IMG/VR virus record: IMGVR_UViG_3300006924_000171
Location: 1-24,452 of that record
Source: a virus
Strand: one strand, 5' to 3'
DNA length: 24,452 bases
The position numbers and the translations under genes were made by a program. Below are positions 4,945 through 8,739 of this stretch, one piece after another. How positions within the stretch are numbered: the first letter of the stretch is position 1; the number at the start of each line of letters is the position of its first letter. A model generated the notes under the pieces. The model was not told the origin of the DNA. It saw only the letters and a program-made list of their open reading frames with translations, and searched no databases.

Positions 4945-5175
4945 TTACCAGAACGGTTGTCCAGTCTTTTTAGCAGTTTCAAGATTTTCTTTAATTAGTT
5001 TAGAAAATATCTCTCTATCTTCAGGACCTACTTGATATATTTCTTCAAGACTAATCCCACCACGCATGTACCAGACCAATCGGGCAAGTTCCATCTTGAT
5101 GTTCTTTGTCTCGTTTTCTAGGTCGTCGACTAATCTTAGGATATCCTCTAGAGACTTAGAAGCTATCCTTATACG
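4945..5175 (-). CDS. 51: gp51-like hub assembly ORF, probably translated by -1 frameshift from gp26
   Basis: This is a 76-residue open extension in the -1 frame of the gp26-like gene, ending ...TAKKTGQPFW. It contains a helix (SLEDILRLVDDLENETKNIK), then ELARLVWYMRGG and PEDREIFSKLIKENLE, which resemble the small protein that follows gp26 in marine T4-like phages. No ATG, GTG or TTG lies between the frame's upstream TGA (5191-5193) and the ATG at 5094, so the N-terminal half has no canonical start. The ATG at 5094 would give only 49 residues and has no Shine-Dalgarno. A slippery run ends at 5175, just before the gp26 stop. An ATA/ATC start or the short 49-aa form are alternatives. In T4, gp51 is needed for hub assembly but is not part of the virion. 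Confidence 0.65.
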   Translation of the reverse strand, partial: RIRIASKSLEDILRLVDDLENETKNIKMELARLVWYMRGGISLEEIYQVGPEDREIFSKLIKENLETAKKTGQPFW

Positions 5176-5184
5176 AAAAAATTT
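5138..5184 (-). promoter_or_regulatory. Candidate -1 programmed frameshift site and downstream hairpin
   Basis: On the minus strand the end of gp26 reads AAATTTTTTC (5184-5175). In the gp26 frame this offers U UUU UUC and also A AAU UUU, both of the X XXY YYZ form. The gp26 stop follows after one codon. Five bases after the run, AGGATA (5169-5164) can pair with TATCCT (5143-5138) across a 20-nt loop, a possible stimulator. A -1 slip joins gp26 to the gp51-like frame. Confidence 0.55.
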
Positions 5185-6032
5185 GATTGATCAAACGCAA
5201 CTGGCATATCCCATTTAGCAGGAGCACCGGCTTCTTTTTCTTCGTCTGTTGCATCAACTGTGATTGGCTCTAAAGTAAACTTTTTCTTTTGAGCTTCCAT
5301 ACTGTCAACAACAGAAGAATAAAACTTCTTGTCTGCGTTTTGTATAAACTGTTGAATATGTAATTTGTCAGTTACAATTTGATCACCAGTTTGGATTGAT
5401 ACAATGCCTTGTTGTACCATATCAATTGTGATACCTGTTAAACGCATAAACGCTTGATTAAAGATTTCTAATTTTTGCTCTTCTGTCATATCATCTTCTT
5501 GTATAACTGAAGCAATACGCTGTTCTTCAAAAGTTTTAGTTGCAACTTTTGTAAACTCACGGTACGTTTGTGGTCTTATTGTAAGAGTAAGATCATCTAT
5601 TGTAATTATATCTTCAAACGAAACATTTTGAAACTTGTCAAGTACTACTCTTAAGTCTAGATCAAATTTACGTTCTAGTTTTGTATTTGGGATCTTAGAA
5701 GTTAATTCTAATTTCTCCCCGTATGTGGCAATTCTAATAGCAACCAATAGTGTGTCAATATCAAGCGTTGGTACGTCCCAAGCGTTTTTGATACTAGGTA
5801 CACAGCTTTGAATAACATCAACTGTAGACTGCCCGTTAAGTAATGCATCAGGAGTTTTAAACATAAGTTCATCTCTTGCCGTCATTGCATAAACAGGAAA
5901 TTCCATATTGTCTGTTACTTCCAAACTTCCATTAGGATACCATTTGCCGTTGCTTGGCAACTTAATGTAGATTTTTGGTTGCCTAAAATATTTCTGTAAC
6001 GGATTGGCTCCGCTTCTCTCTATTTCTGGCAT
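5169..6032 (-). CDS. 26: gp26-like baseplate hub protein / putative tail assembly chaperone (287 aa)
   Basis: The sequence matches the T4 baseplate gp26-type family as found in marine T4-like phages: PLQKYFRQPKIYIKLPSNGK at the N-terminus, then MTARDELMFKTPDALLNG, VIQSCVPSIKNAWDVP and LLVAIRIATYGEKLE. The family's zinc-finger-like region seems replaced here, as no CxxC pair is visible after ATYGEK. The C-terminus is acidic and ends DQSNFFV. A GGAG ribosome site precedes the ATG, and a minus-strand late promoter lies 39 bases upstream. It is transcribed away from the tape measure gene. In T4, genes 26 and 51 lie close to the tape measure gene 29. Near the stop is a slippery run that could extend it to about 362 residues. 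Confidence 0.8.
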   Translation of the reverse strand: MPEIERSGANPLQKYFRQPKIYIKLPSNGKWYPNGSLEVTDNMEFPVYAMTARDELMFKTPDALLNGQSTVDVIQSCVPSIKNAWDVPTLDIDTLLVAIRIATYGEKLELTSKIPNTKLERKFDLDLRVVLDKFQNVSFEDIITIDDLTLTIRPQTYREFTKVATKTFEEQRIASVIQEDDMTEEQKLEIFNQAFMRLTGITIDMVQQGIVSIQTGDQIVTDKLHIQQFIQNADKKFYSSVVDSMEAQKKKFTLEPITVDATDEEKEAGAPAKWDMPVAFDQSNFFV

Positions 6033-6044
6033 GGTTTATCTCCG

Positions 6045-6105: not shown

Positions 6106-8739
6106 ATGGCAGAAGTCACATACAGAGGCGGTGGAATGGATGGAGTTACTAGCAATGCGGCTAGTGAAGCTACTCTACAACGTCTAGTCGCACTAATGGA
6201 AAAAGGCTCCAAGGGCGGAGGTGCGGCCACTGAAAAAATGGCAAATGCTGTCAAAACCAAAGGCGTTACTATATCTAAAGCAGATAACAAGGCTACAGCA
6301 GAAGGTACTGAAGCTAAGAAAGAAGCAACTAAAGCACAGAAGAAACTTTCAGAACGAGTTAGAAATACTGCCAAAGCATTTGATAGATACTCATTAGGAC
6401 TATTCAGCGGAATAGGTAATACTATCCAAACATTTGGTGGTCTTGGTAAAGAACTAATTGCTGGCGGCAACCGAATGAGTGATTTCGGACAGCATGTTAC
6501 AGGACTAATACAAAAATTTCCTATTGTAGGTGGCGTGATTGGTCAGTTTGGCCAAACAATGCTGAATATACTTGATAATCAAATTGACATGTACAGATCA
6601 TTGTCTGGAGCAGGTATTGACTTTGGTGATAGTATGTTTGCAATGCAAAGACGTGCCGCTGAAGCAGGATTAAACATGGCTACCTTAGCAGGCACAATAC
6701 AAGAAAATTCACAGATGTTAGCAGTAGCATTTGGTGGTGCAACTAAAGGTGCTGACAGGTTTAGTAAAATCTCAGCGATTGTACAAAGATCACAAACAGA
6801 CTTTTCTAAACTAGGTATGACAATGGAAGATGTAACTGAGTTTACAGCTGACTATATTGACTTACAAAGAATTCAAGGAAGAATGAAAGACCGGTCCGAT
6901 AGAAGTCTTGCCGCAGGCACTACAGCATATATTATGCAACTAGATGCACTTGCTAAAATTACAGGTATGACTAGAAAGCAAGCCGCGGAAGAATTAAAAG
7001 GTCAAAGTACTGATAAGAGATTACAAGCATTGTTCATGACTATGGACGATGGAGTTAAAGAACAGATGAATGCTAGTTTAGCAATGATCAAAGGTGCAAG
7101 TCCAGAGATGGAAGAAGCATTAAAAGAATTGATTGCAACTAACGGTGTTCCATTAAGTGATTTTGCAAAGAGTTTGATACGAACTAATCCACAGTTTGCT
7201 GAGATGGCAAAAGGATTGAGAGATGGTTCTATATCAGCAGATGAGTTTGCGGCACAAACAAATGACCAAGTAACACAAGCACAAGAGTTTGTTAAGAAAA
7301 ATGCATTTGTAATTGCACAAGCACAAGCATTAGGTGATACTACATATGATGCTGTATTACAACTAGCAAAAATGAGTGAAGTTGGTGGACTACTTAGTGA
7401 AGCAGAACAAAAACAATTAGATGCTATTGCGGCCAAAGATAAAACACTTACTGACTTTGATAGTATGATTGAAAAGATACGTAGCACTATCTTAGTTAAA
7501 TTACTTGACTCAGGTATATTTGACAAACTGCAAACAGTGATGTCAGACCTTACAGCATGGTTCCAAAAAGATGAAACACAAGCATCTATACAAGGATTTG
7601 TTGATAGACTAGGAACATTGTTTGACAACCTTGGTACAATGGTTGAAGACTTTAAAAATGATTGGGGCAAGTTAAGCATTGGTGAACTAGTAACCAAGTA
7701 TCTTATTAATCCTATCAAAACATTATTTGGTGCTGATACAGGTCCACCTCCAGGGCATCCAGAGCATAATAAAAATGCAGGTTCAAAATCAAGTGGACTA
7801 ATGGGAGGATTGTTTGAATCATTAGGCCCAATAATTGAAAAATTTGAATCGTGGGGTAAAGCATTAGTGTGGGGCGGTATTGGTGCCGCGGCTGTATTAA
7901 TTGGATTCACAGCGGCTGTTGCGGCTATGGCGGCTCCGTTAGCATTAGCGTCTCCGGGCATTGCGGCAATTGGAGTTGCGTTTGCTGGAGTAGGTGTAGC
8001 AGGATTTGGAATTGCGGCGTTGATAGATTCAATCACCACATCTGTTGACAATGTTGCAGTTGGATTGAAAAAGTTTGAAGACCTTGATTCAGAAAAATTA
8101 GGTGACGTTGGTGGAGCATTAAAACCACTTACAGATAATATTATGGGTCTTGCTAAAGGCGGTGTTGTTGCATCGTTTATGAGTGAAGGCGTATTAGAAA
8201 AAATTGCCGCAGGCGTTAAATCGTTTGAAGGTATTGATTCTAAATCAATGAAGGACATGGGTCCTGCATTAACTAGTTTACAAGCAGGTATTGCGGCATT
8301 TACCGGTGACGGTATTATGGATAGCTTTAGTAAATTCATTGGCGGATTGTTTGGCAATGATGGCGGAATGAAAGATATGGCAAAAGATCTTGAAGCGTTT
8401 GCTAATATTGATGCCGCTGGACTTCAAGGTATTGGAGATGGTTTACAAGGCATTGCGGCATACGTTGACGCTATGGACGGTGCTAACCTTAAACAAGTAA
8501 CTAAAAATTTAAAAGAATTGATTAAACAAATTGGACAATACAACGAAGAATACAAAAATATGGATGCTGAAACCAAAGCATCGTTTACCAAAGTGTTAAA
8601 TGTAAATAATGAGAGTCAAGATAAGACCTCTTCAATGCTAGTTTCGTTAAATAGTACTAACGCACTTATGTTAGAAGAACTCAAAAAACAAACTAAAGGT
8701 GGAAAAGCTATGACAAACGCAATATCAGGAGCGGCATAA
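6106..8739 (+). CDS. Probable tail tape measure protein (877 aa)
   Basis: This long, mostly helical protein has the usual features of a tape measure: a Lys/Ala-rich N-terminal helix (about 40-95), amphipathic segments (GAGIDFGDSMFAMQRRAAEA), a Gly/Ala-rich hydrophobic region (about 588-640, with AAAVLIGFTAAVAAMAAPL), and a C-terminus with repeated LGDVGGALKPL / MKDMGPALTSL / LQGIGDGLQGI units. Tape measures set tail length and are ejected during infection. It is larger than T4 gp29 (590 aa) and shows no motif that proves orthology, so the call rests on architecture and position beside gp26/51. Its stop overlaps the portal start by one base (TAATG). A general large structural protein is the alternative. 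Confidence 0.65.
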   Translation: MAEVTYRGGGMDGVTSNAASEATLQRLVALMEKGSKGGGAATEKMANAVKTKGVTISKADNKATAEGTEAKKEATKAQKKLSERVRNTAKAFDRYSLGLFSGIGNTIQTFGGLGKELIAGGNRMSDFGQHVTGLIQKFPIVGGVIGQFGQTMLNILDNQIDMYRSLSGAGIDFGDSMFAMQRRAAEAGLNMATLAGTIQENSQMLAVAFGGATKGADRFSKISAIVQRSQTDFSKLGMTMEDVTEFTADYIDLQRIQGRMKDRSDRSLAAGTTAYIMQLDALAKITGMTRKQAAEELKGQSTDKRLQALFMTMDDGVKEQMNASLAMIKGASPEMEEALKELIATNGVPLSDFAKSLIRTNPQFAEMAKGLRDGSISADEFAAQTNDQVTQAQEFVKKNAFVIAQAQALGDTTYDAVLQLAKMSEVGGLLSEAEQKQLDAIAAKDKTLTDFDSMIEKIRSTILVKLLDSGIFDKLQTVMSDLTAWFQKDETQASIQGFVDRLGTLFDNLGTMVEDFKNDWGKLSIGELVTKYLINPIKTLFGADTGPPPGHPEHNKNAGSKSSGLMGGLFESLGPIIEKFESWGKALVWGGIGAAAVLIGFTAAVAAMAAPLALASPGIAAIGVAFAGVGVAGFGIAALIDSITTSVDNVAVGLKKFEDLDSEKLGDVGGALKPLTDNIMGLAKGGVVASFMSEGVLEKIAAGVKSFEGIDSKSMKDMGPALTSLQAGIAAFTGDGIMDSFSKFIGGLFGNDGGMKDMAKDLEAFANIDAAGLQGIGDGLQGIAAYVDAMDGANLKQVTKNLKELIKQIGQYNEEYKNMDAETKASFTKVLNVNNESQDKTSSMLVSLNSTNALMLEELKKQTKGGKAMTNAISGAA

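Follow-up and report, generated by a model that had tools for sequence, protein, structure and literature searches.

A conserved slip run followed by a covarying hairpin points to a programmed −1 frameshift in the gp26-like tail chaperone gene of T4-type phages

The tail chaperone frameshift of phage lambda G/GT was reportedly described by Xu in 2004. The lambda gene is placed before the tape measure gene, and its slip heptamer differs from that of the locus analysed here. In both, the −1 frameshift, proposed here and described for lambda in PMC5009743, falls close to where the short chaperone gene ends. For T4-like phages, gp26/gp51-type chaperone pairs were assigned by Vladimirov, Gautam and Davidson 2022 (Virology 566:9), according to a passage of a citing paper (PMC10885494), and the same work is cited for poly-T signals in the short-form genes of these phages in a passage of PMC12846349. 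Likewise, Vandenendeviridae and Andersonviridae, which are other families, are described in section 3.8.3 of PMC12846349 as having a conserved open −1 frame and the poly-T motif GTTTTT; a hairpin is not mentioned in that section. Chaperone pairs made by frameshifting are thus known from other tailed phages and, according to citing papers, from T4-like phages too. T4 itself resembles the present locus in that PF12322 occurs in both forms, a short form and a long form with a C-terminal addition. However, T4 and phage IME13 use two genes, in T4 on opposite strands (minus for gene 26, plus for gene 51), where the present locus combines a single gene with a −1 slip site. The preliminary description of this locus proposed that a frameshift pair would give gp26 and gp51 a unifying role; the pair is supported by the analysis below, but the role is not new, being by report in print in Vladimirov et al. 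2022 (as cited in passages of PMC10885494 and PMC12846349). What is added here is the spread of the system among related T4-type phages, together with a hairpin that covaries and whose 3′ arm varies in position. In the literature searched, to which Vladimirov et al. 2022 did not belong, neither a hairpin at the slip site of gp26 nor this frameshift in RaK2-like phages was found described.

The window, meaning the whole stretch of DNA that was analysed, is the virus record IMGVR_UViG_3300006924_000171 of 24,452 bases. Its gp26-like gene very probably encodes a tail assembly chaperone and, through −1 programmed ribosomal frameshifting, yields a short/long pair (Table 1). Support for this reading comes from the conserved heptamer, from selection on the extension as coding sequence, from an RNA fold that covaries among relatives, and from the gene's place in the gp26/gp51 family.

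Table 1. Features of the gp26/extension locus, with positions in the window
Feature	Positions	Strand	Basis
Probable ribosome site GGAG, 7 nt before the gp26 ATG	6040..6043	−	Sequence
gp26-like gene, putative short chaperone form, 287 aa	5169..6032	−	PF12322, phrog_150; stop TAA 5171–5169
Putative slippery heptamer T TTT TTC, in-frame NNT TTT TTC	5175..5181	−	Sequence, conservation
Predicted hairpin, starts 5 nt after the heptamer	5138..5169	−	AGGATA/TATCCT (5169–5164 with 5143–5138), CTTCTA/TAGAGG (5162–5157 with 5150–5145)
−1 frame C-terminal extension, 76 codons and stop, all-helical model	4945..5175	−	Frame, selection, model

Both flanks of the locus carry large reading frames on the plus strand, and gp26 itself is on the minus strand. 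On the side of the gp26 start are a gene for an 877 aa structural protein and a portal gene, with protease gp21 and major capsid gp23 farther along; the presence of portal, gp21 and gp23 indicates that the window comes from a T4-type phage. The neighbouring gene at 6106–8739 had been taken for the tape measure. This was not confirmed: the gene is divergent, and 'virion structural protein' (phrog_14121, E 2.7e-9) is the only label it matched. In the RaK2 record the counterpart of this neighbour is labelled as similar to tape measure protein. A SegE-type GIY-YIG endonuclease (PF19835, E 2.3e-33), likely a mobile gene near tail and head genes, is located at 932–1354.

The short form matches PF12322 (E 3.6e-9; 37.1 bits, above the curated cut-off of 24.5) and phrog_150 (E 5.7e-14), and PF12322 is matched by 49 of the 50 aligned family members, the window included. 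An SD-like motif precedes gp26 in 34 of 39 scorable window-clade loci. The gp26 model (pLDDT 81.9) has 45 matches in BFVD at E 0.001 or better, among them 'baseplate hub assembly protein, T4-like' (E 4.5e-23, TM 0.84). Neither the gp26 model nor the extension model had a Foldseek match in the PDB at E 0.001 or better, and PDB sequence searches returned nothing useful for either. The HK97 tail assembly chaperone (2ob9) aligns with the gp26 model over 99 of 107 residues (Z 5.4, rmsd 4.8), at rank 39 and below many unrelated PDB entries. CPxC and CxEC motifs are apparent in the consensus of 50 gp26 relatives, with Pfam zinc ribbons matched by a few members; window gp26 (5172–6032) has IPNT in place of the CPxC motif.

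On the minus strand gp26 ends in TCA AAT TTT TTC GTA TAA, on the slip run as the preliminary description had read it, with the heptamer at 5181–5175. The −1 frame is likewise open from 5190 to 4945, its stop at 4947–4945. Relatives were collected as a window clade, the window and 80 loci kept of 231 gp26-bearing viral-contig relatives (44–100 % identity in the best segment); a further scan of relatives kept 80 of at least 598. TTTTTTC is found in phase near the gp26 stop in 80 of the 81 loci, which answers the earlier call for a check of its conservation. The 81st locus, L041, has TTTTTTC in its DNA, behind a tandem duplication inside gp26 (L041:3715–3900) that places a stop ahead of the otherwise present slip site. 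Distances from heptamer to stop vary within the clade (10, 13, 19 or 25 bases), and extension length counted from the heptamer is 77 or 78 codons in every complete case. The codon ahead of Phe-Phe is one for N, D, S, A, H, R or Y and ends in T wherever the site was found. All 50 distinct gp26 genes have TTTTTTC at the site; they contain 13 further Phe-Phe pairs, none of which is written TTTTTTC, and overall they encode Phe by TTT (78 %) and TTC (22 %). A conserved, correctly phased heptamer of the X XXY YYZ type, as in −1 frameshift chaperone pairs, is therefore present.

The run extends well beyond the clade. When gp26 was clustered at 60 % identity, the heptamer was found in 11/11 window-clade clusters and in 12/12, 2/2 and 4/4 clusters of the other groups. 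Records of 61 named phages were matched by tblastn, of which 14 were opened and scored (RaK2, CBB, XaC1, PBECO4, Kaldavass, 7t3, Vibrio phage 2.275.O, Serratia BF, PA5oct, XacN1, SCTP-2, CM1, Atu_ph07 and Phosso); all 14 have NNT TTT TT(C/T) ahead of the stop. For RaK2-like and other named-phage loci together, with RaK2 counted twice, the run is present in 17/17 (15 TTTTTTC, 2 TTTTTTT). Cyanophages, pelagiphages, phiM9 and KVP40-type phages share NNT TTT TT(C/T/G) and a −1 extension overlapping the stop. The heptamer was found in 81 of 82 cyanophage-type loci, and a T run of the slip kind in all 11 pelagiphage-type loci (TTTTTTT in 10). The junction is T TTT TTC in P-SSM2 and S-PM2, T TTT TTG in phiM9, a longer T run in HTVC008M (eight T in HTVC008M-type loci) and GAT TTT TTC GTA TAA in the KVP40-type phage phi-pp2. 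In these groups the extension measures 60–67 codons from the heptamer, compared with 77–78 in that of the window, and the kinship of the two is only probable. Scoring across groups left out locus L200, which is truncated, and took in L205–L207 from IMG/VR; the T4-type loci L208–L217 stand outside it because gp51 is one gene there. In one cyanophage-type locus (L162:1501–2369) two bases of the slip run differ from a close relative, and gp26 continues into the extension without a change of frame. This is either a natural fused form or an artefact; if real, no short form would be made.

The extension evolves as a protein, and in the −1 frame only. Of the 81 window-clade loci, the 55 with a complete 78-codon extension were compared between relatives differing by 3–30 % in DNA. 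Over 116 pairs, median pN/pS was 0.235 in the −1 frame versus 0.97 and 2.31 in the other frames, with every pair below 1 in the −1 frame. Substitutions by codon position numbered 1498, 618 and 2984, and both other frames are closed across the extension in 55/55 loci scored. The predicted fold is all-helical (pLDDT 90.7).

The extension is probably homologous to the C-terminus of gp51, judging from profile comparison. PF12322 genes occur once each in S-PM2, P-SSM2, HTVC008M and phiM9, and twice in T4. In the first four, phrog_634 ('hub assembly catalyst') lies over the gp26 end in the −1 frame, and in T4 it falls inside the C-terminal part of gene 51. Attempts to place the window extension there by single sequences or by a window-clade profile failed: the −1 frame alone gave E 0.2 against phrog_634, none of 36 members matched phrog_634 at E 0.1, and profile A5 reached a probability of 1 % against A6 and had no match at the C-terminus of T4-type gp51. 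The wider profile A10 matched A6 at the corresponding place (probability 73 %, E 3.1e-5), a value reached by none of 100 column shuffles, of which two reached E 1e-3. Against T4-type gp51, A10 gave a weak match, also at the corresponding place (E 0.028). Because PF12322 is found in both gp26 and gp51, and makes up residues 1–201 of the 249 of T4 gp51, gp51 amounts to a gp26-like domain with the extension in frame. Thus, the frameshift product corresponds to the whole of gp51 and not to 'gp26–gp51'. The fusion of gp26 to a gp51-like protein, as first proposed, holds as regards a frameshift chaperone pair; the extension alone, however, would match only the C-terminal part of gp51 and not gp51 itself.

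In the window the 0 and −1 frames overlap and the second has no start of its own near the junction; starts are present in part of the relatives' loci. The 76-residue product (RIRIASKS...QPFW) has its first ATG, GTG or TTG at residue 28, an ATG at 5094, as had been noted. Early starts were also checked across 49 distinct window-clade loci: the first 20 codons, counted from the heptamer, lack an ATG in 36 and lack ATG, GTG and TTG alike in 24. An ATG does occur in this interval in 13, and in 7 of these it is an ATGA over the stop. In 69 of 70 distinct cyanophage-type loci an ATG is kept five codons in, inside the hairpin, a difference from the window. Given these early ATGs, reinitiation is possible in such loci, where it may add free extension. 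A relative of the P-SSM2 extension is encoded in 571 phage records; four were opened, and three of them either give the extension as a gene of its own starting at an ATG or omit it. The fourth, IME13, resembles T4: its gene 51 is a single gene, and gene 26 stands separately beside it.

The early ATGs and the several records annotated in this way would fit a separate small gene, translated by reinitiation or from an internal ATG (in the window, a 49 aa protein from the ATG at 5094), with the slip run incidental. This is very unlikely. The window has no start before residue 28, the extension of PA5oct has no start anywhere, and an SD-like motif before the first possible extension start was found in only 1/49 window-clade loci and in 0/15, 0/70 and 0/7 distinct loci of the other groups. 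Moreover, the heptamer is retained even where an ATG exists, and T4 gp51 has the extension fused to the gp26-like domain.

The 6 bp stem reported 5 nt past the heptamer is present and is followed, after one unpaired base on each side, by six more pairs. The window's own hairpin is weak when taken alone (helix p 0.39, z −1.7 and −1.9). In most window-clade sequences one long helix is possible, starting mostly 2–6 bases after the heptamer. An uninterrupted-helix scan of the 49 distinct sequences gave 41, 59 and 79 as the commonest registers (20, 12 and 10 sequences), and these share one 5′ arm with three alternative 3′ arms. With the 5′ arm mostly in place and the 3′ arm at three places, selection probably keeps the fold and not the sequence. 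In cyanophage-type loci, which resemble the window clade in having a hairpin after the slip, register 40 is the longest in 65/69.

Covariation was scored in four alignments. A1–A3 were picked by the register of best pairing and hold 45 of the 49 distinct hairpin sequences (23, 11 and 11; L023, L027, L034 and L050 were left out), with Atu_ph07 added to A3; A4 holds 67 distinct full-length cyanophage-type sequences from 82 loci, selected independently of structure. Both sides have changed in 8/13 pairs of A1 (23 sequences), 4/15 of A2 (11), 5/17 of A3 (12) and 3/13 of A4 (67), with 41, 9, 7 and 27 cells, respectively, versus 18.2, 1.7, 3.0 and 8.9 in shuffles. Some measures stayed within the range of the shuffles: in the number of pairs changed on both sides in A1, 76 of 500 shuffles were as high, and in further pair types 254 (A1) and 417 (A4) of 500 were. 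One A4 pair is U-A in 33 sequences, A-U in 14, G-C in 11 and unpaired in 9; the two outermost named pairs of A4 form in 13/67 and 0/67.

Folding of 78 nt was also compared with same-protein recodings, and the natural sequences folded far better, at mean z of −3.38 in the window clade (49 sequences) and −3.41 in the cyanophage-type group (69), figures that, given the kinship among the sequences, are strong indications and not exact probabilities, as are the other hairpin statistics. When the folded segment is slid along, the signal appears only after the slip: mean z right after the slip is −3.61 in the window clade versus −0.80 to +0.10 at five other places, and −3.44 in the cyanophage-type group versus −1.08 to −0.23 elsewhere. 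A helix-length p of 0.05 was reached by 27/49 window-clade and 53/69 cyanophage-type sequences, by 5/15 named-phage sequences (among them Atu_ph07, Phosso, PA5oct and XacN1) and by 2/6 pelagiphage-type or phiM9 sequences. The fold signal is not clear in the RaK2-like and other named phages (mean z −1.25, 15 sequences), nor is the hairpin signal in the six pelagiphage-type and phiM9 sequences. The ATG closest to the extension start lies within the hairpin in L101 (2184–2243) and further cyanophage-type loci; the hairpin might hide a start codon as well as stalling ribosomes.

The hairpin also bears on the possibility that RNA polymerase slips on the T run and yields a mixed mRNA population. Six T, and eight in HTVC008M-type loci, would offer a site for this. 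Six T is short for transcriptional slippage, and the spacing of the hairpin after the run is usual for ribosomal stimulators. In 177 of the 192 loci scored the run is six T and then C, in a fixed codon phase, and a conserved hairpin comes after it in two large groups; on these grounds polymerase slippage is very unlikely. A sequencing or assembly error, or gene decay, at what is after all a homopolymer site in a metagenome contig, is scarcely credible: cultured, named phages have the site as well, every 60 %-identity cluster has it, and purifying selection continues past it.

For programmed ribosomal frameshifting, the sequence of events may be pictured as follows. Most ribosomes would stop at the UAA at 5171–5169 and release the 287 aa short form. 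With the help of the hairpin 5 nt downstream, a minority would slip: both tRNA-Phe would re-pair with U UUU UUC one base further back, and translation would continue in the −1 frame to give a 362 aa long form of residues 1–286 plus 76 new ones; only the final Val of the short form would be lost. A short and a long chaperone would thus come from one gene because some ribosomes slip one base back at six conserved Us ahead of folded RNA. By analogy with lambda G/GT, many short copies might coat the tape measure while a few long ones bring tube subunits. We infer that frameshifting takes place, as we do its rate and the chaperone action of the products.

More broadly, it is likely that one U UUU UUN element ending the short gene sets the chaperone ratio in the sampled T4-type groups, T4 and IME13 excepted, and that a hairpin joins it in at least two large groups. 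In the window's relatives the 5′ arm of the hairpin mostly begins 2–6 nt after the slip, and its 3′ arm would have moved between three places (registers 41, 59 and 79). On the same reckoning, T4 would have fixed both products later, as two genes, through duplication and fusion. The rule of short and long tail chaperones would then extend to a large T4-type group, giant phages included. In records of such phages the extension is a hypothetical protein or is absent, and annotations of free-standing gp51-type genes need to be re-examined. Slip run and hairpin together form a compact RNA element that is open to reporter assay.

Resemblance to the gp26 fold is also apparent in BFVD for 507–686 aa proteins of Erwinia phages Special G and phiEaH2 and Ralstonia phages RSF1 and RP12 (E 3.7e-6 to 1.6e-4), which are candidate tail chaperones in those phages.
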